From: Prolixibacteraceae bacterium
Lineage (GTDB): Bacteria; Bacteroidota; Bacteroidia; Bacteroidales; Prolixibacteraceae
Direction of reading: 5' to 3'
NCBI GenBank assembly: GCA_028282195.1
Contig: JANQII010000131.1
Span: 1-44,025 of the forward strand
DNA length: 44,025 bases
Positions within the stretch are counted from its first letter, which is position 1, and every line of letters starts with the position of its first letter. A program made the position numbers and the translations under genes. The notes under the pieces are model-generated. The model was not told where the DNA came from and made no database searches. It worked only from the letters and a program-made list of their open reading frames with translations. Of the stretch, positions 27,415-39,645 are shown one piece after another.

Positions 27415-28796
27415 TGATCGGTTTTGATCACATAAAGACAATCTATTTTCTCGGTATCGGAGGAATCGGGATGAGTGCGCTGGCTCGATATTTTAAGCAT
27501 GTAGGATATGAAGTGTTGGGCTATGACCGGACTGAGACTGTTTTAACCAGGCAACTTGCTGAAGAAGGGATTGATGTTCATTATGAGGATTTACCAGGTG
27601 TGCTGGAGAAAAGAGTGGAGAAGCTAAGTTGTCTGGTTGTTTACACGCCAGCTATTCCTGCTGATTTGGGTGAACGGGTTTTCCTGGAGGAAAATGGTTT
27701 TGTGATGAAGAAGCGCTCAGAAGTGTTAGGCATGATTTGCAATACCGGACTTTGCGTTGCTGTAGCAGGAACGCATGGAAAAACTTCGGTTTCAACCATG
27801 CTGGCCCATTTGATGAAAAACTCATTGGTTGGGTGCAATGCGTTTTTGGGAGGTATTTCTAAAAACTACCAAAGCAATCTTCTGCTTGACACCGAAAGCA
27901 AGTGGTTTGTTGCTGAAGCAGATGAATTTGATCGTTCATTTTTACGCTTGTTTCCAAATCTGGCCTTAATTACTTCAACCGATGCCGATCATTTGGATAT
28001 TTATGGCACGCACAATGAGATTGTAAATTCATTCAATGAATTTGCCGGTCAGGTTAAAGAAGGTGGCTCAGTAATTGTGAAAGAAGGATTACCAATAACA
28101 CAGACAAACAACAATGCCAGGTATTATTCATATTCGTTAACTGCAAAGGCTGATTTTTGTGCTGAGAACCTGGAATTGAAAGACGAAACGTATCGGTACA
28201 ATTTGATTTATCCGGAAGGAAAAGTTGAAGGTTTACGCTTAAATTATCCGGGGCTAATGAATGTTGAAAATTCTGTGGCGGCATGTGCTTTGGCAATTCA
28301 GGCAGGAGTAACTCCTGAAGAATTGAAAAAAGCATTGCCAAAGTATGAGGGGGTCAAGAGGCGCTTCGATATTCGCTTTCGTGGTAAAGATTATTTGTTG
28401 ATTGATGATTACGCTCATCACCCAACCGAGTTGAATGCAACTATAGCTTCGGTAAAAGCCATGTTTGAGACAAGGAAAATAACAGGGATTTTTCAGCCAC
28501 ATCTTTTCAGTCGAACCAATGATTTTGCAGATGGGTTTGCTGAAGAGTTAAGTAAACTGGATGAAGTTATCCTTCTGGATATTTATCCGGCTCGCGAAAA
28601 ACCGACGCCTGGAGTAACATCAAAAATAATTTTTGATCAGATTAAAAACGAAAATAAAAAGCTCATTAAAAAAGAAGAATTGACCGGGATAGCCGATGAG
28701 TTATACCCGGGGGTGATTATGATGATGGGCGCTGGGGACATTGATACATTAGTTGAACCGATGATTGAGAAATTAAGATTGAAAGAAAATGCGTAA
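27414..28796 (+). CDS. murC: UDP-MurNAc:L-alanine ligase MurC
   Basis: This cytoplasmic Mur ligase attaches L-alanine to UDP-MurNAc. The N-terminus has YFLGIGGIGMSALARYF. The ATP loop is GTHGKTS (119-125), then VAEADEFDRSFL and DADHLDIYG. The C-terminal part shows RRFDIRF, DDYAHHPTELNA and PHLFSRTNDFADGFAEEL. Length 460 is normal. It shares eight bases with the following ftsQ. Confidence 0.97.
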   Translation: MIGFDHIKTIYFLGIGGIGMSALARYFKHVGYEVLGYDRTETVLTRQLAEEGIDVHYEDLPGVLEKRVEKLSCLVVYTPAIPADLGERVFLEENGFVMKKRSEVLGMICNTGLCVAVAGTHGKTSVSTMLAHLMKNSLVGCNAFLGGISKNYQSNLLLDTESKWFVAEADEFDRSFLRLFPNLALITSTDADHLDIYGTHNEIVNSFNEFAGQVKEGGSVIVKEGLPITQTNNNARYYSYSLTAKADFCAENLELKDETYRYNLIYPEGKVEGLRLNYPGLMNVENSVAACALAIQAGVTPEELKKALPKYEGVKRRFDIRFRGKDYLLIDDYAHHPTELNATIASVKAMFETRKITGIFQPHLFSRTNDFADGFAEELSKLDEVILLDIYPAREKPTPGVTSKIIFDQIKNENKKLIKKEELTGIADELYPGVIMMMGAGDIDTLVEPMIEKLRLKENA

Positions 28797-29538
28797 GCCG
28801 GTTACAAATAGCATTGTATTGGTCATCTTGCTTGCAGTGATGATAGTTTCACTTGCATTTTCAGGCAGTGGTTTGTCAAGGGTTAAATGTTCTTCTGTAA
28901 ATGTTGTAATCAATGAAGATTCTCCAAGGTTTTTGGATGAAAAGGAAATTGAAAAGATCATTCTGAAAAATAATGAGAAACTTTTTGAAAAGAAGCTATC
29001 AGCTGTTAATACCGATGTAATAGAAGAAAAATTGGAAAAGGTAGCTTCAATAAAAAAAGCGGAAGTATTTAGAAAAATAAGCGGAACTGAGCTGGATTTC
29101 AAAGGGCAGCTAATTGTTGAAGTTGAACAGCGCAGGCCAATCGTCAGAATTATAGCTGGAAATAAAGATTATTACCTGGATGGTGAAGGCGTTAAAATTC
29201 CGCGTAATGATAAGTTTACGGCAAAAGTGGTTGTTGTAAATGGAAATGTGCCAGATAAATATGCACAGGAAAAACTTCTTCCTTTCGTGAAATTCATTGA
29301 TGAGAATGAGTTTTGGAAAGCCATGATTGGGCAGATATATGTTAGGCAGAATGAAGAATTGGTTTTGGTTCCTCAAATAGGTGATCAGCTAATTGAATTC
29401 GGGAAAGCAGATCAGGTTCGGGAAAAATTTAGAAATCTCAAGGCTTTGTACCAGCAAGTTTTTGCTGATACAGGCTGGGAAAAATATAGAAGGATCAACC
29501 TGAAATATGAAAATCAGGTGGTTTGTACTAAAAAGTAA
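28789..29538 (+). CDS. ftsQ: FtsQ-like divisome protein
   Basis: This 249-residue bitopic membrane protein has a short cytoplasmic tail, one membrane helix (about 7-24, SIVLVILLAVMIVSLAFS) and a periplasmic region. The region after the helix has the POTRA-like pattern of FtsQ (a FLDEKEIEKII strand-helix, then KVASIKKAEVFRKISG and QLIVEVEQRRPIVRI), followed by DYYLDGEGVKIP. FtsQ joins FtsL and the FtsWI complex. The sequence is divergent from proteobacterial FtsQ, and context between murC and ftsA carries much of the weight. Confidence 0.88.
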   Translation: MRKPVTNSIVLVILLAVMIVSLAFSGSGLSRVKCSSVNVVINEDSPRFLDEKEIEKIILKNNEKLFEKKLSAVNTDVIEEKLEKVASIKKAEVFRKISGTELDFKGQLIVEVEQRRPIVRIIAGNKDYYLDGEGVKIPRNDKFTAKVVVVNGNVPDKYAQEKLLPFVKFIDENEFWKAMIGQIYVRQNEELVLVPQIGDQLIEFGKADQVREKFRNLKALYQQVFADTGWEKYRRINLKYENQVVCTKK

Positions 29539-29543
29539 AGCTT

Positions 29544-30830
29544 ATGGGCAAAAGCGAAAAAATAGTTGCTGCAGTTGATGTGGGTACCACCAAAGTTGTG
29601 GTGGTGGCCGGCAAAAAAGGAGCAGACGGCAAAATTGAAATTTTGGGTTATGGGAAAGCCCGGTCAATGGGGGTCAAGCGAGGTGTCGTATTAAATATTG
29701 ATGAAGCGTTCACAGCCATTCATAATGCAGTTCGTCAGGCAGAAGATATGTTTGATGGCGATATTGATGAGGTTTATGTCAATGTTATTGGTCAGCAATT
29801 AAAGACTGTAGCCAATGGTGCTGAAAAATTTCTTGATGAATCCAGAATTGTATCAGAAGAAGATGTCAGACAACTTTTTGCAATTGCCCAAAATGTAAAG
29901 TTGCCTGAAGGATATAAGATTTATCATGCAAGCCCACAGTTGTTTACGGTAGATAATGAGCTTGGAATCCCAAACCCTGTTGGAATGACAGGCGAAAAAA
30001 TACAATCTGAATTTAAATTGCTGGTAGCACCTGAGGTGTATGAAGACAATTTACGACTATGTTTTGAGAGAGGCGCAATTAAGGTGCAAAAAGCAATGGT
30101 TGATCCATTGGCTTCTTCCGAAGTACTCCTGTCTGAAGATGAAAAAGAAGCTGGCGTAATTCTGTTGGATATTGGTGGTGGAACGACCAAAGTTGCGGTT
30201 TATCACGATGGTGTTTTGGGCTTTTCATCCTTAATTCCTTTTGGTGGAAATGTAATTACACACGATATAAAAGAGGGTTGTACAATCCTTGCTCGTCAGG
30301 CCGAATCGCTGAAAGTTCAGTTTGGCCAGGCAATGGGTGATTTTGCTCCCGAGGATAAAGTGGTTACCATACCGGGGATTTCGGGCTGGGAACCTAAAGA
30401 AATATCATTCAAAAACCTGGCTTTTATTATTCAGGCCAGGATGGAAGAAATTATTGATGCATTCTTTTTCCAGCTTGAAGAATCCGGTTTAATGGATAAG
30501 GTCGGTGCTGGTATTGTTATAACCGGAGGTACAGCTTTGATGCCGGATTTGACTCAGTTAATCAAATTTAAAACGGGTTTGGACGTAAAAGAAGGCATAC
30601 CACGTTTGCAGATTGATCCACAATGGAAAGAGTTGGAAGACCCTCGAAATTCAACAGTTCTTGGGTTATTAACCCTGGCACTTAATGATTCAGGGAATGC
30701 AGTTATTACAAAGAAGAAGAAAAAGAAGGTACGCTCTACACAACCTGGCTTTTTTAGTCAAATGAAAAAAGAAGTGGCTCGTCAGGTAACACTGTTCTTT
30801 GAAGATGAACAGGATACGGAAATGTTTTAA
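29544..30830 (+). CDS. ftsA: Cell division actin-like protein FtsA
   Basis: This cytoplasmic actin-fold protein tethers FtsZ to the membrane. Phosphate-loop motifs are AAVDVGTTKVVVV (near 9-21) and ILLDIGGGTTKVAVYHDG (about 205-222); the SHS2-like 1C domain lies between them. GAGIVITGGTALMPDL (about 315-330) is the adenosine motif. A flexible basic linker (TKKKKKKVRSTQ) leads to the C-terminal amphipathic helix GFFSQMKKEVARQVTLFF, the membrane-targeting sequence. Length 428. It is six bases after ftsQ and 18 bases before the first ftsZ. Confidence 0.96.
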   Translation: MGKSEKIVAAVDVGTTKVVVVAGKKGADGKIEILGYGKARSMGVKRGVVLNIDEAFTAIHNAVRQAEDMFDGDIDEVYVNVIGQQLKTVANGAEKFLDESRIVSEEDVRQLFAIAQNVKLPEGYKIYHASPQLFTVDNELGIPNPVGMTGEKIQSEFKLLVAPEVYEDNLRLCFERGAIKVQKAMVDPLASSEVLLSEDEKEAGVILLDIGGGTTKVAVYHDGVLGFSSLIPFGGNVITHDIKEGCTILARQAESLKVQFGQAMGDFAPEDKVVTIPGISGWEPKEISFKNLAFIIQARMEEIIDAFFFQLEESGLMDKVGAGIVITGGTALMPDLTQLIKFKTGLDVKEGIPRLQIDPQWKELEDPRNSTVLGLLTLALNDSGNAVITKKKKKKVRSTQPGFFSQMKKEVARQVTLFFEDEQDTEMF

Positions 30831-30848: not shown

Positions 30849-32126
30849 ATGGAGGACATTTTAAACTTTGGATTTGAACAAACTAAATCCTCAATCATTA
30901 AGGTGATCGGGGTCGGCGGCGGTGGTTGTAATGCAGTCAACCACATGTTTGATGAAGGGATTGAAGGTGTAGATTTTCTTATTTGTAACACGGATGCTCA
31001 GGCCATGCGGAATAGCAAGGTCTCAATTAAAATTCAGTTGGGGGTTACTTTAACTGAAGGCCGTGGTGCGGGTAATATGCCTGAGCAAGGAGAGCAGGCA
31101 GCTATTGAAAACCTGGAGGATGTTCGTTTGGTGCTGGAGAATACCAAAATGCTTTTCATTACTGCCGGACTTGGTGGTGGAACCGGAACAGGCGCTGCTC
31201 CGGTTATTGCAGAATTAGCCCGCGAGTTGGATATTTTGACCATTGCTGTGGTAACTATTCCATCCCCATCGGAAGGTAAAAGGCGTTTTGACCAGGCGTT
31301 GGAAGGGCTGGAAAAATTGAAGGACCATGTGGATAGCTTGTTGGTCATCAGCAATGAAAAACTGCATAAAATATATGGAGACCTCCCAGCTTCGCAGGCT
31401 TTCAAAAAGGCCGATAATATACTTGCTACCGCTGTAAAAGGAGTCGCTGAGATTATCACTTTACACGGCAATATCAATATTGACTATGCCGATGTAAATA
31501 CCGTGATGACCAAAAGCAAAGTGTTTATCATGGGAACAGGTATTTCTGAAGGTTCAAACCGTGCAATGGATGCGGTTCAAAAAGCTTTGGAATCGCCCCT
31601 TCTTGACAGTAATGATATCTATGGTTCAAAGGATATTCTTCTGAATATTACTTCTGGGAAAGATGAAATTACCATGGGTGAAATTGGCGATATTATTGAA
31701 TTTCTCCAAAACAAAGCAGGGCAGGATGCCAATATTATTTGGGGTAATGGAATTGACCACAAGCTTGGCGAAAAAATCAGTGTGACAATTATTGCTACTC
31801 GTTTTGATAAAAATCCGAGTAATATTTTGCAGGCCCGGGAACCAAAAGAAGAATTTGTTTTGGAAAACCAGGCCTGTGAAATAAACCTGGAAGATGACGA
31901 TGAAGAATTTTTCGATTTTGAAAACAATGAGAATAAAATAGCAGAGCCGGTAATCTCCGAAACTGGCTCAGCAAAATCAAATAAAAAAGAAAATACAGCT
32001 GCTCTTGTAAATGATGGTTCAGCTTTTAGCAAAAATAAGAACCAGGATAATGAAAAAGTCGATAGCTGGTTTCAACGCCAGTTTAGTAAACTTTTCGATG
32101 ATCAGGATGAAGCCATTAACAAATAA
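30849..32126 (+). CDS. ftsZ: FtsZ paralogue (upstream copy) with a non-canonical C-terminal tail
   Basis: This is a tubulin-like GTPase of 425 residues. The GTP-binding loops are intact: GVGGGGCNAVNHM (21-33, with C27 where the other copy has Gly), GGGTGTGAAP (109-118), and the synergy loop NIDYAD (210-215), so it can probably hydrolyse GTP on polymerisation. The TxPF segment reads TIPSPSEG. After a variable acidic linker (about 335-400), the end has no IPAYRR-type peptide; instead VDSWFQRQFSKLFDDQDE (404-421) can form an amphipathic helix with W407, F408, F412, L415 and F416 on one face. Hand alignment over about 300 residues gives roughly 60 % identity to the neighbouring FtsZ. An accessory, possibly self-anchoring, division role is inferred. 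Confidence 0.9.
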   Translation: MEDILNFGFEQTKSSIIKVIGVGGGGCNAVNHMFDEGIEGVDFLICNTDAQAMRNSKVSIKIQLGVTLTEGRGAGNMPEQGEQAAIENLEDVRLVLENTKMLFITAGLGGGTGTGAAPVIAELARELDILTIAVVTIPSPSEGKRRFDQALEGLEKLKDHVDSLLVISNEKLHKIYGDLPASQAFKKADNILATAVKGVAEIITLHGNINIDYADVNTVMTKSKVFIMGTGISEGSNRAMDAVQKALESPLLDSNDIYGSKDILLNITSGKDEITMGEIGDIIEFLQNKAGQDANIIWGNGIDHKLGEKISVTIIATRFDKNPSNILQAREPKEEFVLENQACEINLEDDDEEFFDFENNENKIAEPVISETGSAKSNKKENTAALVNDGSAFSKNKNQDNEKVDSWFQRQFSKLFDDQDEAINK

Positions 32127-32142
32127 CTAAAAGACAAAGCGT

Positions 32143-33561
32143 ATGTCAGACGATATAATGAATTTCGATTTAGATAAATCTTCAGGTACAATTATTAAAG
32201 TAATTGGAGTTGGTGGCGGTGGTGGAAATGCCGTTAACCACATGTATGAAGAGGGTATTAAAGATGTAGGGTTTATGCTTTGCAATACCGATGCACAGGC
32301 CTTGCATGGCAGCCCCGTTCCCCTGAAAATTCAGCTAGGTGAATCACTTACTGAAGGGCGTGGTGCTGGTAACAAACCAGAAGTAGGGCGTGAAGCTGCT
32401 ATTGAGAATATCGAGAATGTGAAGAAAATGCTCGAGAAAACGACTAAGATGGTTTTCATTACAGCAGGTATGGGGGGTGGAACCGGTACCGGTGCTGCCC
32501 CTGTAATTGCTGAAGCTTGTAAAGAGCTTGGTTTACTAACAGTAGGTATTGTAACCTTACCGTTTAGAAATGAAGGTCGTCGAAGAATCAAACAGGCAAT
32601 TGATGGTATTGCACAAATGGAAGGGCATGTTGATTCGTTGCTTGTGATCAATAATGAACGCATTCGTGAAATGTATGGTGATTTTAAAATCTCAGAAGCT
32701 TTTGCCAAAGCCGACAATGTACTTACCACTGCAGCAAAAGGTATAGCCGAAATTATTACGGTAGCTGGCTATATTAATGTTGACTTTGCGGATGTTGAAA
32801 CCGTAATGCGTACGAGTGGTGTCGCAGTAATGGGGTCTGCAACCTGCGGGGGGGAAGACCGTGCGCTGAGGGCAGTAGAAGAAGCACTTAATTCGCCATT
32901 GCTGAATAATAATGATATTGATGGAGCACGGAATATCTTATTAAATATTACTTCAGGAAGCGAAGAAGTAACTATGGATGAGATTGGCGAAATTACTGAT
33001 TACGTTCAGGCGAAAGCAGGTAATGATGCCGATTTGATTTGGGGTAATGGAGTTGATGAAAGCCTTGGCAATAAAATAACGGTAACCATTATTGCAACAG
33101 GTTTTAGTGTAACAAGTATTCCTGAAATGATGGCTGCCAGAAAGGTTGAAAAAACATACCATACCCTGGCTGATGAGCCACAAGCAGAACCTGCACCAAA
33201 GCCTACATCAAAACCCAAAATACCGGCTTCATCTGAGGGGATGAGCCGTAGCGGTCAGCGATCTTTTGAGTTTGATATCAATCCTGCTCAGGGAGATGAA
33301 TTTGATGCGCTTTATGGTGGCCCAAAAGAAAAAAAGGGAGAAGATGAAAATTTTTCAGTAAAAGTGGACTTTTCTACTTCAAGTGAAGAGGCTGTGGATG
33401 AGTTGGAAAACATTCCTGCTTATCGTAGAAAGAAAATGAATATTAAAGATGTTCGAAAAAAATTTGAGCAACGTTTGTCACGTTTTTCACTTTCACCGGA
33501 CGATGATGATAAAACCGTTTTAAGAGATAATAATTCATATTTACACGATAATGTGGATTAA
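32143..33561 (+). CDS. ftsZ: Cell division GTPase FtsZ (canonical copy)
   Basis: This tubulin-like GTPase forms the Z ring. Its motifs are GVGGGGGNAVNHM (22-34), GGGTGTGAAP (111-120) and NVDFAD (212-217). TLPFRNEG matches the usual TxPFxxEG. After a long linker (about 335-420) comes ENIPAYRRKK (422-431), which fits the conserved C-terminal peptide that binds FtsA, followed by a further 40 residues ending SYLHDNVD, a tail I associate with Bacteroidota FtsZ. I take this as the housekeeping copy. It starts 16 bases after the first copy and is the last gene of the tightly packed cluster. A MITE-like element follows directly. Confidence 0.95.
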   Translation: MSDDIMNFDLDKSSGTIIKVIGVGGGGGNAVNHMYEEGIKDVGFMLCNTDAQALHGSPVPLKIQLGESLTEGRGAGNKPEVGREAAIENIENVKKMLEKTTKMVFITAGMGGGTGTGAAPVIAEACKELGLLTVGIVTLPFRNEGRRRIKQAIDGIAQMEGHVDSLLVINNERIREMYGDFKISEAFAKADNVLTTAAKGIAEIITVAGYINVDFADVETVMRTSGVAVMGSATCGGEDRALRAVEEALNSPLLNNNDIDGARNILLNITSGSEEVTMDEIGEITDYVQAKAGNDADLIWGNGVDESLGNKITVTIIATGFSVTSIPEMMAARKVEKTYHTLADEPQAEPAPKPTSKPKIPASSEGMSRSGQRSFEFDINPAQGDEFDALYGGPKEKKGEDENFSVKVDFSTSSEEAVDELENIPAYRRKKMNIKDVRKKFEQRLSRFSLSPDDDDKTVLRDNNSYLHDNVD

Positions 33562-34306: not shown

Positions 34307-35824
34307 TTAATGATTTGTTTTCTTGGCTCTTTTGAAATACATCATTTTTGAATAAACGCTTACTTTAGAGTTTCCCTTTTGAGCAGGTTCCCAATCAGGG
34401 ATTTGAGCCAGAGCTTTTTGGAAAGCTTTATTAACTTCTGGATGTTCACATGCTTGAAGAACGTGTCCATCCCTTACTTTCCCGTTCTTGTCGATAATGA
34501 AGCTAATTGTGATCTTATATTCAAGATTATCAGCTATGTCTTTCCCGTAGTTCTTTAACTGAACTTTCATCCATTTGTCAAAGCTTCCTTGAGAAAAATG
34601 TGCCAAGCTAGTAACATCTCCAGCTGGATAAATTATTTCGTCTGTATTAATTGTAGTCTGATTTACATGATATACTCTTGCATTACTCAGAGCAATTCTA
34701 ACTTCATCCACTCGACTTAGAGGAATAGGGTCATCAAGAACAAGAAGAATATCTTCTCTTCCTGTTTTTTGAAATGCTTTCGCTTTATTCGCAAGTTCTT
34801 TTAGTGAACAAGATTTGCCATTTATATAATTGCCACCTTTTCTTATTTCAATTGAAAAGCCATCATATTTGATTTGGTTTTTTAAGGGTTCAGAATGTGG
34901 GACAATTTTTTCAATTACATTACTTTCTTCTATTATTTTTCTAGAAGATTGGCTAAAAGCCATCAGAATAAATGCGATAATTGGTACAAATAGAATTAAC
35001 TTAATTTGCATCCAACGGTTAAAATTATTTTTATTCATCATTCTTAATCGTTTTGAAATTGGACATTGTGTAAAATTGTTTGCCATGGCAAAACGTCTTT
35101 CGCCAACAGCTTTTTTTACTACCAACAGTTGATATTTAGTTGCATCGATGCCTTTATTAAGTGTAGCCTGATCGGCTTGGTATTCATGAATGAGTTTGAG
35201 GTCACGTCGTAACACCCAGGCGAAAGGATTAAACCAGTGTATGAGTGTGAATAATTCGCAAATGATAAGGTCGATGAAATGACGGTGTGTAATGTGCGCC
35301 ATTTCATGGGTTACGATCTCTTCCCTGTTTTCCTTGTAATCTGCTTCTGATAAGACAATCTTTCGAACGAACGAAAAAGGTTGTATCATGTCTTTTACAA
35401 TTGCTATCCGAACAGATTTATATGTTTGTTTTATTGATGATCCAATTAATTGCATGACCCTAAATAAAGAGATCATAGTTCTTAGGATAAATATGAAAAG
35501 TATTACGTAATAAGTACCTGTTGTATAATCTTTCTTCTTTGTAGGTGTTTCAAGGGCTATTTGCCTGATGTTGGTATCACGGGAATCATCTTGTATTTGA
35601 GGAAAGACAAGCTCTTGAACAATTTCTATGGGTTGATTTATTGATCTTTCAGGTAGTAGATTAATATTTAGGAATGGTAATGTACTGGATAGGAGTATAA
35701 TGGAAATCAATAAAAAACGATTTACCTGAAAGTTTTTGTCGCGGGACATTGTTAGTTTAAAAAGACTAAATAGTAGAATTAAACTAATCGATGATTTTAA
35801 AAGATATGTAAATAATGGATTCAT
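34307..35824 (-). CDS. BlaR1/MecR1-type M56 membrane metallopeptidase with TonB-like C-terminal domain
   Basis: This 505-residue sensor-protease has four hydrophobic segments in the N-terminal half (about 4-24, 37-54, 104-126 and 184-204). The zinc site is HEMAH (173-177) with E214 in HEYQAD as third ligand. Another membrane segment (about 272-292) leads to an external part. The C-terminal 100 residues (ITISFIIDKNGKVRDGHVLQ, then FQKALAQIPDWEPAQ) look like a TonB C-terminal domain rather than a beta-lactam sensor. In this family, sensing leads to cleavage of the BlaI repressor. The ATG overlaps the blaI stop by one base. The signal sensed is unknown; beta-lactam resistance is not implied. Confidence 0.9.
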   Translation of the reverse strand: MNPLFTYLLKSSISLILLFSLFKLTMSRDKNFQVNRFLLISIILLSSTLPFLNINLLPERSINQPIEIVQELVFPQIQDDSRDTNIRQIALETPTKKKDYTTGTYYVILFIFILRTMISLFRVMQLIGSSIKQTYKSVRIAIVKDMIQPFSFVRKIVLSEADYKENREEIVTHEMAHITHRHFIDLIICELFTLIHWFNPFAWVLRRDLKLIHEYQADQATLNKGIDATKYQLLVVKKAVGERRFAMANNFTQCPISKRLRMMNKNNFNRWMQIKLILFVPIIAFILMAFSQSSRKIIEESNVIEKIVPHSEPLKNQIKYDGFSIEIRKGGNYINGKSCSLKELANKAKAFQKTGREDILLVLDDPIPLSRVDEVRIALSNARVYHVNQTTINTDEIIYPAGDVTSLAHFSQGSFDKWMKVQLKNYGKDIADNLEYKITISFIIDKNGKVRDGHVLQACEHPEVNKAFQKALAQIPDWEPAQKGNSKVSVYSKMMYFKRAKKTNH

Positions 35825-36183
35825 TATTTTTTCTTGCTTTCGATGTCGTTAATCAGCTTTTTTAAATCGTCAAGTGATATATCTTTATCCTCAACAAACA
35901 TTGAGACAACGTTTTTATAAGAACTGTTAAAGTGTTTCTTAATAACTGTTCCTAGTGTTTGTTTGCTGTATTCTCCTTCTGTGATAGCTGCTGAATAACG
36001 GTAGGTATTTCCAAATTTTTCGTGACGGATATAGCCTTTGTCTTCCAGACTTCTGACAATTGTAGAGAGCGTGTTATAATGTAGGTTCCCGGAATACTGC
36101 TCTTTCAATTCTTTTACAAACATGCTTCCATGGATCCAGAAATACCTTAATATTTCTTCTTCTTTTTGAGTTAATTTTTTCAT
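35824..36183 (-). CDS. BlaI/MecI-family transcriptional repressor
   Basis: This 119-residue winged-helix repressor has the family's full layout. KLTQKEEEILRYFWIHGSMFVKEL and YNTLSTIVRSLEDKGYIRHEK form the DNA-binding part (about 2-60), and a C-terminal dimerisation helix follows. It is expected to repress its own operon with the BlaR1-type protease until cleaved. The ATG at 36181-36183 lies just downstream of the three dyads and the promoter at 36214-36280. The stop codon overlaps the start of the protease gene. Confidence 0.95.
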   Translation of the reverse strand: MKKLTQKEEEILRYFWIHGSMFVKELKEQYSGNLHYNTLSTIVRSLEDKGYIRHEKFGNTYRYSAAITEGEYSKQTLGTVIKKHFNSSYKNVVSMFVEDKDISLDDLKKLINDIESKKK

Positions 36184-36366: not shown

Positions 36367-39300
36367 CTACTTATTATTCCATTCAGGAAGTCGGCCAGGA
36401 GTCCATGGTGCATGAACTGCATTTAGTTGTTTTTCCAGTTCAGGTACTTCCTTTTCAACAATTTGTTTAAGCTCATCCAGAACAGGTATAAATTCTTCAG
36501 ATAAGGTTTTGAAACTTTCTTTTACCGTAGAAGTTGTTTCAGAAGTTGTTCCCATATGGGTATATACAATTGAATTTAACCGACTGATTAACGGAACTTG
36601 TGCCGGAGGGATTTCTTCGCTGCTCGCTTTGGCTTTGTCACCATTCAGTTGATATTTCAATTCGTCAACTTTAACCGCTAATTCCCTGGCTTCATCCATT
36701 AATTTTTGCCCTGCTTCAGGAGTTGTATAAATAGCTTCTTTGATGTGTTCAATTTTTGAGCTTAGTTCGTTTAGCAAGTTGTTGCTTCCACGAACAGCAA
36801 TAGAAAGCTTACTCACTTTATCAGCAAACTCAACATTCTCTGTATAATTATCATTTGGCAGACTTGAATTGTTCAATTTTTTACAGGTAAACTCTATTGG
36901 TTCTGCCAACTCTGTTAATTCTCCTTCATGCCACATTTTTAAACCAACTTTGTATTTGCCGGGCATAGCCATAATTCCGTTTCCTCTGTCTTTTTTAGCT
37001 GGCTTAAAAGTGCCACTAAGTTTGACAGATGAATTCATTGCGTAGGTCTGGTTCCATGTAACTCTGTTAATTCCTTTGGCAGGATCTTTAACTAGTTGAT
37101 TTACTACATTTCCATTCACATCGTAAATGCTGAAAATCAAATGAGTCTTTTCTTGTTTGCCTTCAAGCTCAAGTTCCCTCCAGCTTGGTTGAGGAATTGG
37201 ACTTCCACTTTTGAAAAGCTCTTTCTCTTTTTCTTTACGAAGTTGCTTTTTCATTTTAGGAACTTCTTTTAAATAATAGGTGAACGTTGCTCCATAATCG
37301 GGATTTTTAGAAGTAAAGTACGTATCTCCCTGATTTCGTTTTCCGTAGTTTTGGATATACATTAAAGCATCTTTTATTTCAAAAATATGAGCTTCTTTTT
37401 CCGCAAGTTCATGACTAAGTTCACGTAATGGAGTGTAATCATCAAGAATGTAGAACCCACGTCCGAAAGTTGCAATAGCCAAATCATTTTCATCTTTTTG
37501 AATGGCAATATCTTTCACTGCAATTGTTGGCAAACCTGCTTTCAACTGCACCCAGTTTTTACCACTGTCAATGGTAAAGAAAACACCAAATTCAGTACCA
37601 ACAAAAAGTAGTTCAGGCCTTACGTGATCTTGTACTATCGTGTGGATTGTTCCATTCTCTGGTAAGTTACCTGAAATTGATCCCCAGGTTTTCCCTTTGT
37701 CAGAACTTTTATAAATGTAAGGTTTGAAATCATCTCTTTTCAGATTGTCGAATGAAGCATAAACAACATTTTCATTGAATTTGTCGGCACAAAGATCACT
37801 TACATAAGTGTATTCAGGAACTCCGGTGAATGATTTAACCTGGCTCCAGTTTTGACCGCCGTTTTCCGAAACGGAAATAACACCGTCATCAGTTCCAACA
37901 TATAACAAACCTTCTTTAATTGGAGATTCATCAAGAGATACGATTGTACCCCATTGAGAAGTCGATACATCTTTTACAACAGACTCTGCTGGCCAGTATT
38001 TGCCCATTACAGGAAAGCTGTTTCTGTCAACCTGTGCTGTTAAGTCATCACTTATCGTTTTCCATGAATTTCCACGATCATCGCTACGGAAAACTTTATT
38101 TGCTGCAAAGTAAATGCGCGTGCCATTGTGTGGACTAAGAATCATTGGTGCGTTCCAGTTCCATTTATAGGTTTCTACGCCTTTAGGTTCGCGGGGCTTA
38201 ATATTTAAGCGCTCTCCACTTCTTTTATCGTGTCGATATAAATTACCGTACTGATACTCCGTATAAACAATATTGTGGTCATCCGGATCGGTAGCCAACC
38301 AAAAACCATCGCCGCCTAGCGTAACATGCCATTCGTCGTTTATAACGCCATCTCTACTGATATTCCGGGATGGGCCATACATGGAGTTATTGTCCTGGGT
38401 ACCACCATATACATTGTAGAAAGGCTTGGCATTGTCAACATGTATACGATAGAATTGGGTAACCGGAAGGTTTTCTTTGTAATCGAAAGTTTTTCCATTA
38501 TCCCATGTTTCATAGATTCCGCCATCGCCACCAATAATATAGTGTTCTGTATCTTTAGGGTCAATCCAAAGTGCATGGTCATCTACATGCCTTCCTTTTA
38601 TGCTGATCCTTTCCCATGTTTTACCTCCATCAACAGTAACTGCAGATACGGTTTCAACAGAGTAAACTTTATCAATATCTACCGGGTCACAGAAAATTTC
38701 ATTGTAATATTGCCCGCTTGAAGAATGATCACTCATTTTTGACCAGCTTTCACCTTTGTCTGTTGAACGGAAGAACCCACCTTTCCCCTCAGCAGCTTCT
38801 ACAATCAGGTAAAGAACGTTAGGGTCAACAGGTGAAACATCAATTCCCATACCTCCGATATGAACTTTTGGAAGGCCTTCCGTAATTTTTCTCCAATGGG
38901 CACCAGCGTCTGTTGATTTATACACTGAAGATTCAGGGCCACCACCAATTTTTGTGAAAGAAGTCCTTCTTCGTTGTTCTGAAGTAGCATACAGAATATC
39001 CGGGTTTTTAGGGTCCATTTTGATGTTGTTGACCCCTGTATTCTCGCTTATTTCAAGAATTCGTTCCCATGTTTTACCTCCGTCAGTTGTTTTATACAGT
39101 CCGCGTTCACCGCCTGGTCCCCAAACGGAACCTTCGCAGGCAACGTAAACCACATCCGAATTTCTTGGGTCGATAACAATGCCTCCAATTTGACGACTTT
39201 CTTTCAATCCCATATTTTTGAAAGATTTGCCTCCGTCTACAGATTTATAGATTCCATCACCATAGCCTAAAGCACGCTGGTGGTTATTTTCACCGGTTCC

Positions 39301-39645
39301 AACCCAAACAACATTTGAATTGTTTGGATCAAGTTCTACATCGCCAATGGAATACGATCCGTATTTGTCAAAGATAGGTTTCCAGGTGGTACCATTGTTG
39401 GTTGTTTTCCAAACATTACCACTTGCTACACCTACATAATATTCTTTTGGATCTTTGGGATTTACTGCGAAATCAGCAATGCGTCCACTTGCCCATGCAG
39501 GCCCAATACTACGGAATTTTAGACCACTAACTAAACTTGAGGTAATAATTGTGTCACCTTTTGCTTTCTCTGCATCTTTCTTTTTAGCAGTAGAAAATGA
39601 GAAACAAAAAGCAATTAATAAGATTGAAAGAATTCCTTTTTTCAT
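36367..39645 (-). CDS. Large secreted BNR/Asp-box (sortilin/VPS10-like) repeat protein
   Basis: This 1092-residue exported protein has a signal peptide (about 1-20, ILSILLIAFCFSFSTA). Residues about 30-750 hold at least ten Asp-box motifs of the form S/T-x-D-x-G-x-x-W: TTNNGTTW, SVDGGKSF, TTDGGKTW, STDAGAHW, STDKGESW, TVDGGKTW, TWDNGKTF, SDDRGNSW, SSDKGKTW and TIDSGKNW. These give a beta-propeller like that of sortilin/Vps10 and BNR glycosidases. The last 300 residues include an Ig-like stretch and a charged helical region, ending WTPGRLPEW. I see no typical type IX secretion C-terminal domain. Enzymatic activity cannot be assigned. A hairpin follows the stop. Confidence 0.88.
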   Translation of the reverse strand: MKKGILSILLIAFCFSFSTAKKKDAEKAKGDTIITSSLVSGLKFRSIGPAWASGRIADFAVNPKDPKEYYVGVASGNVWKTTNNGTTWKPIFDKYGSYSIGDVELDPNNSNVVWVGTGENNHQRALGYGDGIYKSVDGGKSFKNMGLKESRQIGGIVIDPRNSDVVYVACEGSVWGPGGERGLYKTTDGGKTWERILEISENTGVNNIKMDPKNPDILYATSEQRRRTSFTKIGGGPESSVYKSTDAGAHWRKITEGLPKVHIGGMGIDVSPVDPNVLYLIVEAAEGKGGFFRSTDKGESWSKMSDHSSSGQYYNEIFCDPVDIDKVYSVETVSAVTVDGGKTWERISIKGRHVDDHALWIDPKDTEHYIIGGDGGIYETWDNGKTFDYKENLPVTQFYRIHVDNAKPFYNVYGGTQDNNSMYGPSRNISRDGVINDEWHVTLGGDGFWLATDPDDHNIVYTEYQYGNLYRHDKRSGERLNIKPREPKGVETYKWNWNAPMILSPHNGTRIYFAANKVFRSDDRGNSWKTISDDLTAQVDRNSFPVMGKYWPAESVVKDVSTSQWGTIVSLDESPIKEGLLYVGTDDGVISVSENGGQNWSQVKSFTGVPEYTYVSDLCADKFNENVVYASFDNLKRDDFKPYIYKSSDKGKTWGSISGNLPENGTIHTIVQDHVRPELLFVGTEFGVFFTIDSGKNWVQLKAGLPTIAVKDIAIQKDENDLAIATFGRGFYILDDYTPLRELSHELAEKEAHIFEIKDALMYIQNYGKRNQGDTYFTSKNPDYGATFTYYLKEVPKMKKQLRKEKEKELFKSGSPIPQPSWRELELEGKQEKTHLIFSIYDVNGNVVNQLVKDPAKGINRVTWNQTYAMNSSVKLSGTFKPAKKDRGNGIMAMPGKYKVGLKMWHEGELTELAEPIEFTCKKLNNSSLPNDNYTENVEFADKVSKLSIAVRGSNNLLNELSSKIEHIKEAIYTTPEAGQKLMDEARELAVKVDELKYQLNGDKAKASSEEIPPAQVPLISRLNSIVYTHMGTTSETTSTVKESFKTLSEEFIPVLDELKQIVEKEVPELEKQLNAVHAPWTPGRLPEWNNK

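Follow-up and report, generated by a model that had tools for sequence, protein, structure and literature searches.

The 44,025-nucleotide stretch of Prolixibacteraceae DNA analysed here (contig JANQII010000131.1 of assembly GCA_028282195.1; the whole of it is called the window) carries two ftsZ genes in tandem, ftsZ-A and ftsZ-B. Both genes are intact and conserved, both keep the active-site residues and are under purifying selection, and their products end in different tails, each conserved. FtsZ-B keeps the canonical C-terminal peptide, whereas FtsZ-A lacks it and ends in an amphipathic segment like the end of FtsA, which suggests that the tail of FtsZ-A most likely binds lipid directly. 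On balance, we lean towards the view that FtsZ-A is its own membrane anchor and forms co-polymers with an adaptor-bound FtsZ-B, and that this division of labour is ancient and family-wide. The canonical peptide of one tail and the FtsA-like segment of the other are what the analysis adds to an earlier, sequence-only reading of this DNA.

The Gene Pair

30849..32126, + strand: ftsZ-A, the upstream, non-canonical copy, 425 amino acids (aa) (open reading frame; TIGR00065, 359.6 bits; own clade, 35 family rows)
32143..33561, + strand: ftsZ-B, the downstream, canonical copy, 472 aa (open reading frame; TIGR00065, 364.1 bits; own clade, 35 family rows)

Both open reading frames are complete, lie on the + strand and are spaced by 16 nucleotides (nt), as the sequence-only reading had reported. 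It had also put their identity at roughly 60% over about 300 residues, for which we measured 60.8% over 319 aa, and the GGGTGTG and NxDxAD loops that it named were found in both copies of the window. FtsZ-A and FtsZ-B both exceed the NCBIfam ftsZ equivalog cut-off of 295.2 bits, and each matches both Pfam FtsZ domains. No third match to the tubulin/FtsZ model (E 0.001) was found in the genome of the window.

Contrasting C-Terminal Tails

32055..32099, + strand: C-terminal amphipathic segment of FtsZ-A, KVDSWFQRQFSKLFD, residues 403-417, a candidate membrane-targeting helix (conservation of W407, F408 and D420, hydrophobic moment, similarity to the FtsA tail, AlphaFold helix)
33400..33435, + strand: canonical C-terminal peptide of FtsZ-B, ELENIPAYRRKK, residues 420-431 (strict PA[YFH] pattern)
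33529..33558, + strand: extreme C-terminus of FtsZ-B, NNSYLHDNVD, a form common in single-copy FtsZ of the order

The strict PA[YFH] pattern, on which the main peptide counts are based, was present in 34 of 35 FtsZ-B tails, in none of 35 FtsZ-A tails and in 13 of 21 single-copy rows. A looser pattern was matched by 53 of the 61 single-copy rows of the order, by 3 of 35 FtsZ-A tails and, in other families, by 5 of the 16 copies that stand upstream; the matches in FtsZ-A and in these upstream copies were taken as chance matches in the linker. The conserved adaptor-binding peptide, as a feature of FtsZ, was thus found in FtsZ-B and not in FtsZ-A. Because 8 of the 61 single-copy FtsZ also miss the looser pattern, the lack of the peptide alone does not exclude FtsZ-A from FtsZ, and we class it as an FtsZ by its core and a variant by its tail.

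The end of FtsZ-A has, in most rows, the form W-F-x-(R/K)-(Q/N)-F with hydrophobic and acidic residues after it. Thirty-four of 35 FtsZ-A rows, and none of 35 FtsZ-B rows, had W[FLI] within their last 26 residues. Beyond residue 322, only W407, F408 and D420 were invariant in 19 aligned FtsZ-A sequences, which were 61-76% identical to that of the window. The mean best hydrophobic moments of 11 residues within the last 26 were 0.68, 0.35 and 0.62 in FtsZ-A (n = 35), FtsZ-B (n = 35) and FtsA (n = 71), respectively; single-copy FtsZ tails had a mean of 0.35 (n = 61), and a moment of at least 0.6 was reached by 0 of 61 of them versus 25 of 35 FtsZ-A tails. With the composition fixed, the order of residues was more amphipathic than in shuffles (p < 0.05) in 21 of 35 FtsZ-A, 23 of 71 FtsA, 0 of 35 FtsZ-B and 0 of 21 single-copy tails. 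These tail statistics left out G010_B, G021_A, six stray or short copies (including G310_B), and G310_A and the G051 pair, neither of which could be assigned to a group; by eye, the G051 pair fits the tail pattern and G310 does not. A terminal amphipathic segment after the linker is therefore a feature of FtsZ-A, with a predicted helix of low confidence: the AlphaFold model of FtsZ-A (19 sequences) has a folded core and low confidence from residue 331, and the one helix predicted there is 403-417. A basic stretch before the tail was also considered as a copy-specific feature and was rejected, the mean number of K and R being 8.0 in FtsZ-A and 7.9 in FtsZ-B.

The tail of FtsZ-A was then compared with that of FtsA, which is encoded directly upstream.

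29544..30830, + strand: ftsA, directly 5' of ftsZ-A (Pfam FtsA; C-terminal tail at about 30744-30827, to which the FtsZ-A tail is similar)

In the window, FtsA ends in VARQVTLFFEDEQDTEMF, and the tail of FtsZ-A is DSWFQRQFSKLFDDQDEAINK. Over 35 genomes, the alignment of FtsZ-A tails to FtsA tails gave a mean score of 24.43, compared with 18.40 for shuffled FtsZ-A tails (standard deviation of 20 shuffles, 0.30). Pairs from the same genome scored 27.4 and pairs from different genomes 24.3 (label permutation p 0.001). The excess over shuffles fits an FtsA-type membrane-targeting sequence, which may have been borrowed from ftsA or may be convergent. The proposal of separate anchoring routes in the sequence-only reading gains concrete support in that FtsZ-A, without the canonical peptide, carries an FtsA-like amphipathic tail instead.

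The tail could also be a protein-binding peptide, whose W-F-x3-F docks on FtsA, FtsZ-B or another divisome protein in place of the PAY peptide. We consider this unlikely but worth keeping in view. The canonical C-terminal peptide of FtsZ is itself a short, conserved motif that binds proteins, and a W-F pair invariant in 19 sequences is more strictly kept than a membrane helix of purely physico-chemical function would require. On the other hand, the tail resembles that of FtsA, and the upstream copies of other families differ from it in residues and share a similar character, as a lipid-binding segment would allow.

Conservation and Divergence of the Core

31173..31193, + strand: T4 loop of FtsZ-A, GGGTGTG, invariant in 35 of 35 FtsZ-A rows
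31254..31277, + strand: T5 loop of FtsZ-A, TIPSPSEG, where Ser or Ala stands in place of the canonical Phe in all 35 FtsZ-A rows
31476..31493, + strand: T7 loop of FtsZ-A, NIDYAD, with N, D and D invariant in 35 of 35 FtsZ-A rows

The same T4 loop and the same N, D and D of T7 were found in 35 of 35 FtsZ-B rows, and the T1 and T3 loops, which vary slightly, are nearly invariant in both copies. The rate ratio dN/dS (omega) was below one wherever it could be computed, with dS saturated in most pairs. In G003/G004, the sole pair with dS well below 1, the omega of the core was 0.027 for FtsZ-A and 0.008 for FtsZ-B; in the other computable pairs it was 0.011-0.044 (computable in 8 of 14 pairs for FtsZ-A and 7 of 14 for FtsZ-B). 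The statement that both copies are constrained is thus borne out, with a core omega of 0.008-0.044 and invariant T4 and T7 residues. Relaxed selection or lost GTP contacts, which the sequence-only reading had named as signs of a decaying duplicate, were looked for and not seen, though FtsZ-A evolves faster than FtsZ-B.

Fourteen core positions were fixed differently in the two copies (at least 80% in each). Polarised by 18 single-copy FtsZ of the order (G001b and G023b excluded), 12 of them are derived in FtsZ-A and 2 in FtsZ-B, and because of this FtsZ-B looks like the holder of the ancestral role. The contrast between TIPSPSEG and TLPFRNEG, drawn earlier from the window, proved copy-specific at the Phe, the column being F in 35 of 35 FtsZ-B rows and S (31) or A (4) in all 35 FtsZ-A rows. 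Ala is replaced by Phe at A226 in 35 of 35 FtsZ-A rows. Cys versus Gly in the first loop did not hold as a mark of the copies and was dropped, since the column is mixed in both (C23 G9 S3 in 35 FtsZ-A rows and G25 S8 C2 in 35 FtsZ-B rows).

The consistent derived changes at the T5 Phe and at A226 could serve to separate polymers, and FtsZ-A and FtsZ-B might then act apart in time or place, for example with FtsZ-A as an early membrane scaffold or shape element and FtsZ-B as the division ring. Passages of PMC12583498 discuss distinct roles for the archaeal FtsZ1/FtsZ2 pairs. We regard this as improbable, because the adjacent genes, their mostly short spacing and their fixed order suggest matched expression, and mixed contacts would be permitted by the T4 loop and the T7 N, D and D, which neither copy varies, together with the nearly invariant T1 and T3 loops.

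Occurrence in the Family

Among 140 genomes of the family, 130 had at least two FtsZ matches, 4 had one and 6 had none (E 0.001). The adjacency of the genes was checked in the window and 35 other genomes, one copy being incomplete in two of them (contig end; run of N). FtsZ-A preceded FtsZ-B in tandem in 36 of 36, mostly with short spacing, and ftsA was present in all 36 stretches. Each of the 23 genera searched included one or more genomes with two matches. The possibility that the upstream copy exists only in this assembly, raised earlier, can thus be set aside, the pair being family-wide. Seven of the ten genomes with one match or none were less than 90% complete, and G071 had its only match at a contig edge; G067 and G086 were 97 and 95% complete, yet had no FtsZ match.

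Scanning with FtsZ-A gave 18 named loci, namely 3 of Sunxiuqinia, 9 labelled Prolixibacteraceae, 1 of Mariniphaga, 4 labelled only Bacteroidetes, Bacteroidota or Bacteroidales, and 1 from a metagenome bin labelled Chitinophaga pinensis; some of these loci are genomes of the 36-genome set. The W-F of the FtsZ-A tail was present at 18 of 18 loci, and FtsZ-B followed downstream at 17, the 18th stopping at the contig edge.

It is scarcely credible that FtsZ-A is a redundant or decaying copy that chance or dosage has preserved: it does evolve faster than FtsZ-B, and 4 and 6 of the 140 genomes have one and no match, respectively, but its core omega is 0.011-0.044 in the 8 of 14 computable pairs, its active-site residues and tail motif are invariant, all 23 genera have a genome with two matches, seven of the ten deficient genomes are less than 90% complete, and the match of G071 is at a contig edge.

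Two family genomes encode an additional divergent FtsZ-like protein, one of 328 aa, about 25% identical to the pair (L071, 5285-6271), and one of 370 aa, 35-37% identical to the pair (L070, 4962-6074); ftsA was not found in these two stretches.

No open-access title or abstract on a second FtsZ in Prolixibacteraceae was found, preprints and most subscription papers being outside the coverage, and nothing was found on FtsZ together with Prolixibacteraceae in the open-access library searched; for FtsZ together with Sunxiuqinia, what came up was a paper on a sulfate reducer. The term 'prolixi' was absent from PMC9871819 in a term search.

Second Copies in Other Families

An even sample of the order comprised 295 genomes, at least 90% complete, 5 of them of this family. 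Among the 290 genomes of other families, 19 had at least two strong FtsZ matches and 6 had none. The copies were inspected in 17 of these 19 genomes (G051 and G058 included, G304 and G376 left out). In 14 of the 17, the extra copies stood in tandem behind ftsA, and these genomes belong to seven families (f16, f23, f32, f67, f81, f87 and f100); the tandem of f87 has a gap of 522 nt.

In f23, f32, f67 and f100, the final copy of each tandem retains the peptide, and those before it have an amphipathic end. The pattern is shown by f16 by eye and not by f87. Among 16 upstream copies of other families, f81 included, the hydrophobic moment was at least 0.5 in 15 and at least 0.6 in 7, the low-moment exception being G219_A of f81. 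The strict peptide was present in 0 of 16 upstream copies versus 12 of 12 last copies. The tail segments of upstream copies include ITKFVGSLFDD, GLQKMIKFFDD and WLKRKIGTLFSD. Three FtsZ genes stand in a row behind ftsA in f32 and f67 (L110, L111, L112 and L113), where the first two products end in different amphipathic segments and the third keeps the canonical peptide. We consider it quite possible that within the order tandem duplication, perhaps repeated, has given a second FtsZ, and in two families a third, in which an FtsA-like membrane tail replaced the adaptor peptide.

A sample of the phylum beyond the order comprised 117 genomes, of which 6 had a second strong match; all six belong to one family (f128). 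Their extra matches (second or third; G476, G492, G499, G507, G515 and G526) lie on other contigs or more than 1 Mb away and are not tandem.

Some further observations were made on these genomes. In f100 (L115, L116 and L117), the FtsA matches, at 385-389 aa, are short, and the FtsZ encoded downstream stops a few residues past the PAF/PAY peptide, the usual terminal extension being missing. Short FtsZ-like proteins are encoded at a second genomic site in L122 (2995-3666, 223 aa) and L124 (2623-3381, 252 aa); they have basic/hydrophobic ends and are possibly relatives of the GTPase domain only.

Age of the Duplication

In a tree built from the cores of 94 FtsZ (linkers and tails excluded, bootstrap not fully settled; G010_B at a contig end and G021_A with a run of N left out), the 35 FtsZ-A rows formed one group (99/95) and the 35 FtsZ-B rows another (99/98). 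FtsZ-A and FtsZ-B again formed two groups in trees of 80 and 90 rows, which had fewer family rows. The 80-row tree left out 17 of the 36 family genomes and 19 named rows (long branches, fragments and stray copies), three of which belong to dropped family genomes, and the 90-row tree left out 27 of the 36 family genomes and 29 named rows. The backbone was not resolved in any of the three trees. Because FtsZ-A and FtsZ-B are separate clades across the family, the trees place the duplication before the radiation of the family, in agreement with the earlier statement that it is old.

Approximately unbiased (AU) tests did not reject the grouping of FtsZ-A with the upstream copy of f23 (p 0.164 with one f23 genome and 0.445 with four) or of FtsZ-B with the downstream copy of one f23 genome (p 0.35). 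They did not reject FtsZ-A and FtsZ-B of the family as one clade (p 0.231, 0.391 and 0.78) or the two copies of f23 as one clade (p 0.333) either. In the 90-row test, the tree with the family copies as one clade had a likelihood higher by 13.75 than the tree of the free search, so the free search had missed it. For one clade of all amphipathic-tailed copies, the 80-row set gave p 0.0315 (0.083 without f81 and f100) but the 90-row set 0.349. A single old duplication and several independent ones both fit these results, and the split of FtsZ-A and FtsZ-B may lie on the stem of the family or deeper. Lateral transfer from afar was given no weight, which is an impression from identities and trees.

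Neighbouring Genes

28789..29538, + strand: ftsQ-like gene, 5' of ftsA (PF03799, E 7e-4, 20.9 bits, just below the 21-bit cut-off)

The ftsQ-like gene and ftsA upstream of the pair, with yqeY downstream, agree with the place in a division and cell wall (dcw) cluster given in the sequence-only reading. Further along the window, on the - strand, a penicillinase-repressor-like regulator and an M56 (BlaR1-type) peptidase lie side by side at 34307-36183, the peptidase with a TonB-C match near its end, below the cut-off of that model, and a 1092-aa protein with sortilin/BNR-type repeats is encoded at 36367-39645.

Discussion

In the arrangement that we favour, a self-anchoring FtsZ-A beside an adaptor-bound FtsZ-B, the tail of FtsZ-A would bind the membrane directly and give a contact independent of FtsA, FtsZ-B with its canonical peptide would recruit FtsA and the divisome, and the two copies would co-assemble in one Z-ring. 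By analogy with other two-FtsZ systems, the copies probably co-polymerise, and this sharing of tasks may be why both are kept; we hold these two points less firmly than the lipid binding.

Several results weigh against this arrangement. The order of residues was significant in 21 of 35 FtsZ-A tails and, for other families, in only 2 of 16 upstream copies, and the hydrophobic moment is unspecific: among the C-termini of 26 genes of the window, the FtsZ-A tail ranks 2nd and FtsA 7th. The helix 403-417 has a predicted local distance difference test (pLDDT) score near 40. Low-confidence tail helices (415-422 and 434-447) are predicted for FtsZ-B as well, so the two copies cannot be told apart by their models. 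FtsZ-B tails likewise score above their shuffles when aligned to FtsA, by a much smaller margin (17.88 vs 17.04, standard deviation 0.22), and the excess of same-genome FtsZ-A and FtsA pairs ignores kinship. In G019 (L049), the FtsZ-A tail lacks the W and the FtsZ-B copy lacks the PAY peptide. The mean pairwise patristic distance was 1.19 for FtsZ-A and 0.81 for FtsZ-B (34 genomes), and the omega of linker plus tail was 0.12-0.29 and 0.04-0.13, respectively.

An engineered FtsZ fitted with an amphipathic helix as its membrane-targeting sequence assembles on the membrane without FtsA. That protein is artificial, whereas FtsZ-A would be a natural, putative case, and one paired with a canonical copy. 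Second FtsZ copies without the canonical C-terminal peptide are known as FtsZm of Magnetospirillum, FtsZ2 of Sinorhizobium and FtsZ1/FtsZ3 of Agrobacterium; these extra copies are truncated and are not known to carry a conserved new tail or to stand in tandem with ftsZ.

Systems with two FtsZ copies of unequal membrane contact have been described elsewhere. For example, according to passages of PMC11285052, chloroplast FtsZ1 and FtsZ2 co-polymerise, the C-terminal motif of plant FtsZ1 (RR/KLFF in angiosperms) binds the membrane, and FtsZ2 binds ARC6. There, one copy keeps the adaptor-binding peptide and the other does not bind that adaptor and has a short terminal motif, and the FtsZ-A/FtsZ-B pair likewise has the adaptor peptide in one copy and an amphipathic end without it in the other. 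In contrast, the present genes are bacterial and adjacent in a dcw cluster, and the adaptor would be FtsA, not ARC6. The motif of FtsZ1 is described in the same passages as a basic/hydrophobic, amphiphilic beta-strand, whereas the FtsZ-A tail is a proposed helix; membrane binding is known from FtsZ1 and is proposed here from the sequence of the FtsZ-A tail. A plastid descent of FtsZ-A is not expected, because it is 60.8% identical to FtsZ-B of the same genome.

Passages of PMC12583498 describe a dual FtsZ in Odinarchaeota, where one copy binds the membrane by an amphipathic helix and the other is held by SepF. This pairing of a direct binder with an adaptor-held copy is like the one proposed here, but there the helix is N-terminal, SepF is the adaptor and the two copies fall into the archaeal FtsZ1 and FtsZ2 clades. 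Mycoplasma FtsZ, as cited in PMC12583498, is a bacterial FtsZ that carries a membrane motif of its own at the N- or C-terminus; these bacteria are wall-less, and the passages concerned name no paired canonical copy.

If the proposed arrangement is true, it would be an independent bacterial invention of that of chloroplast FtsZ1 and FtsZ2, in which a natural self-anchoring FtsZ stands beside a classical one and the Z-ring could touch the membrane without FtsA. The family would offer a bacterial parallel to the chloroplast and archaeal two-FtsZ systems, and strain records exist (Sunxiuqinia indica and S. dokdonensis). The pair, fixed throughout the family, would then be a natural test of whether a Z-ring needs FtsA or another adaptor at the membrane, and of the effect of direct attachment.

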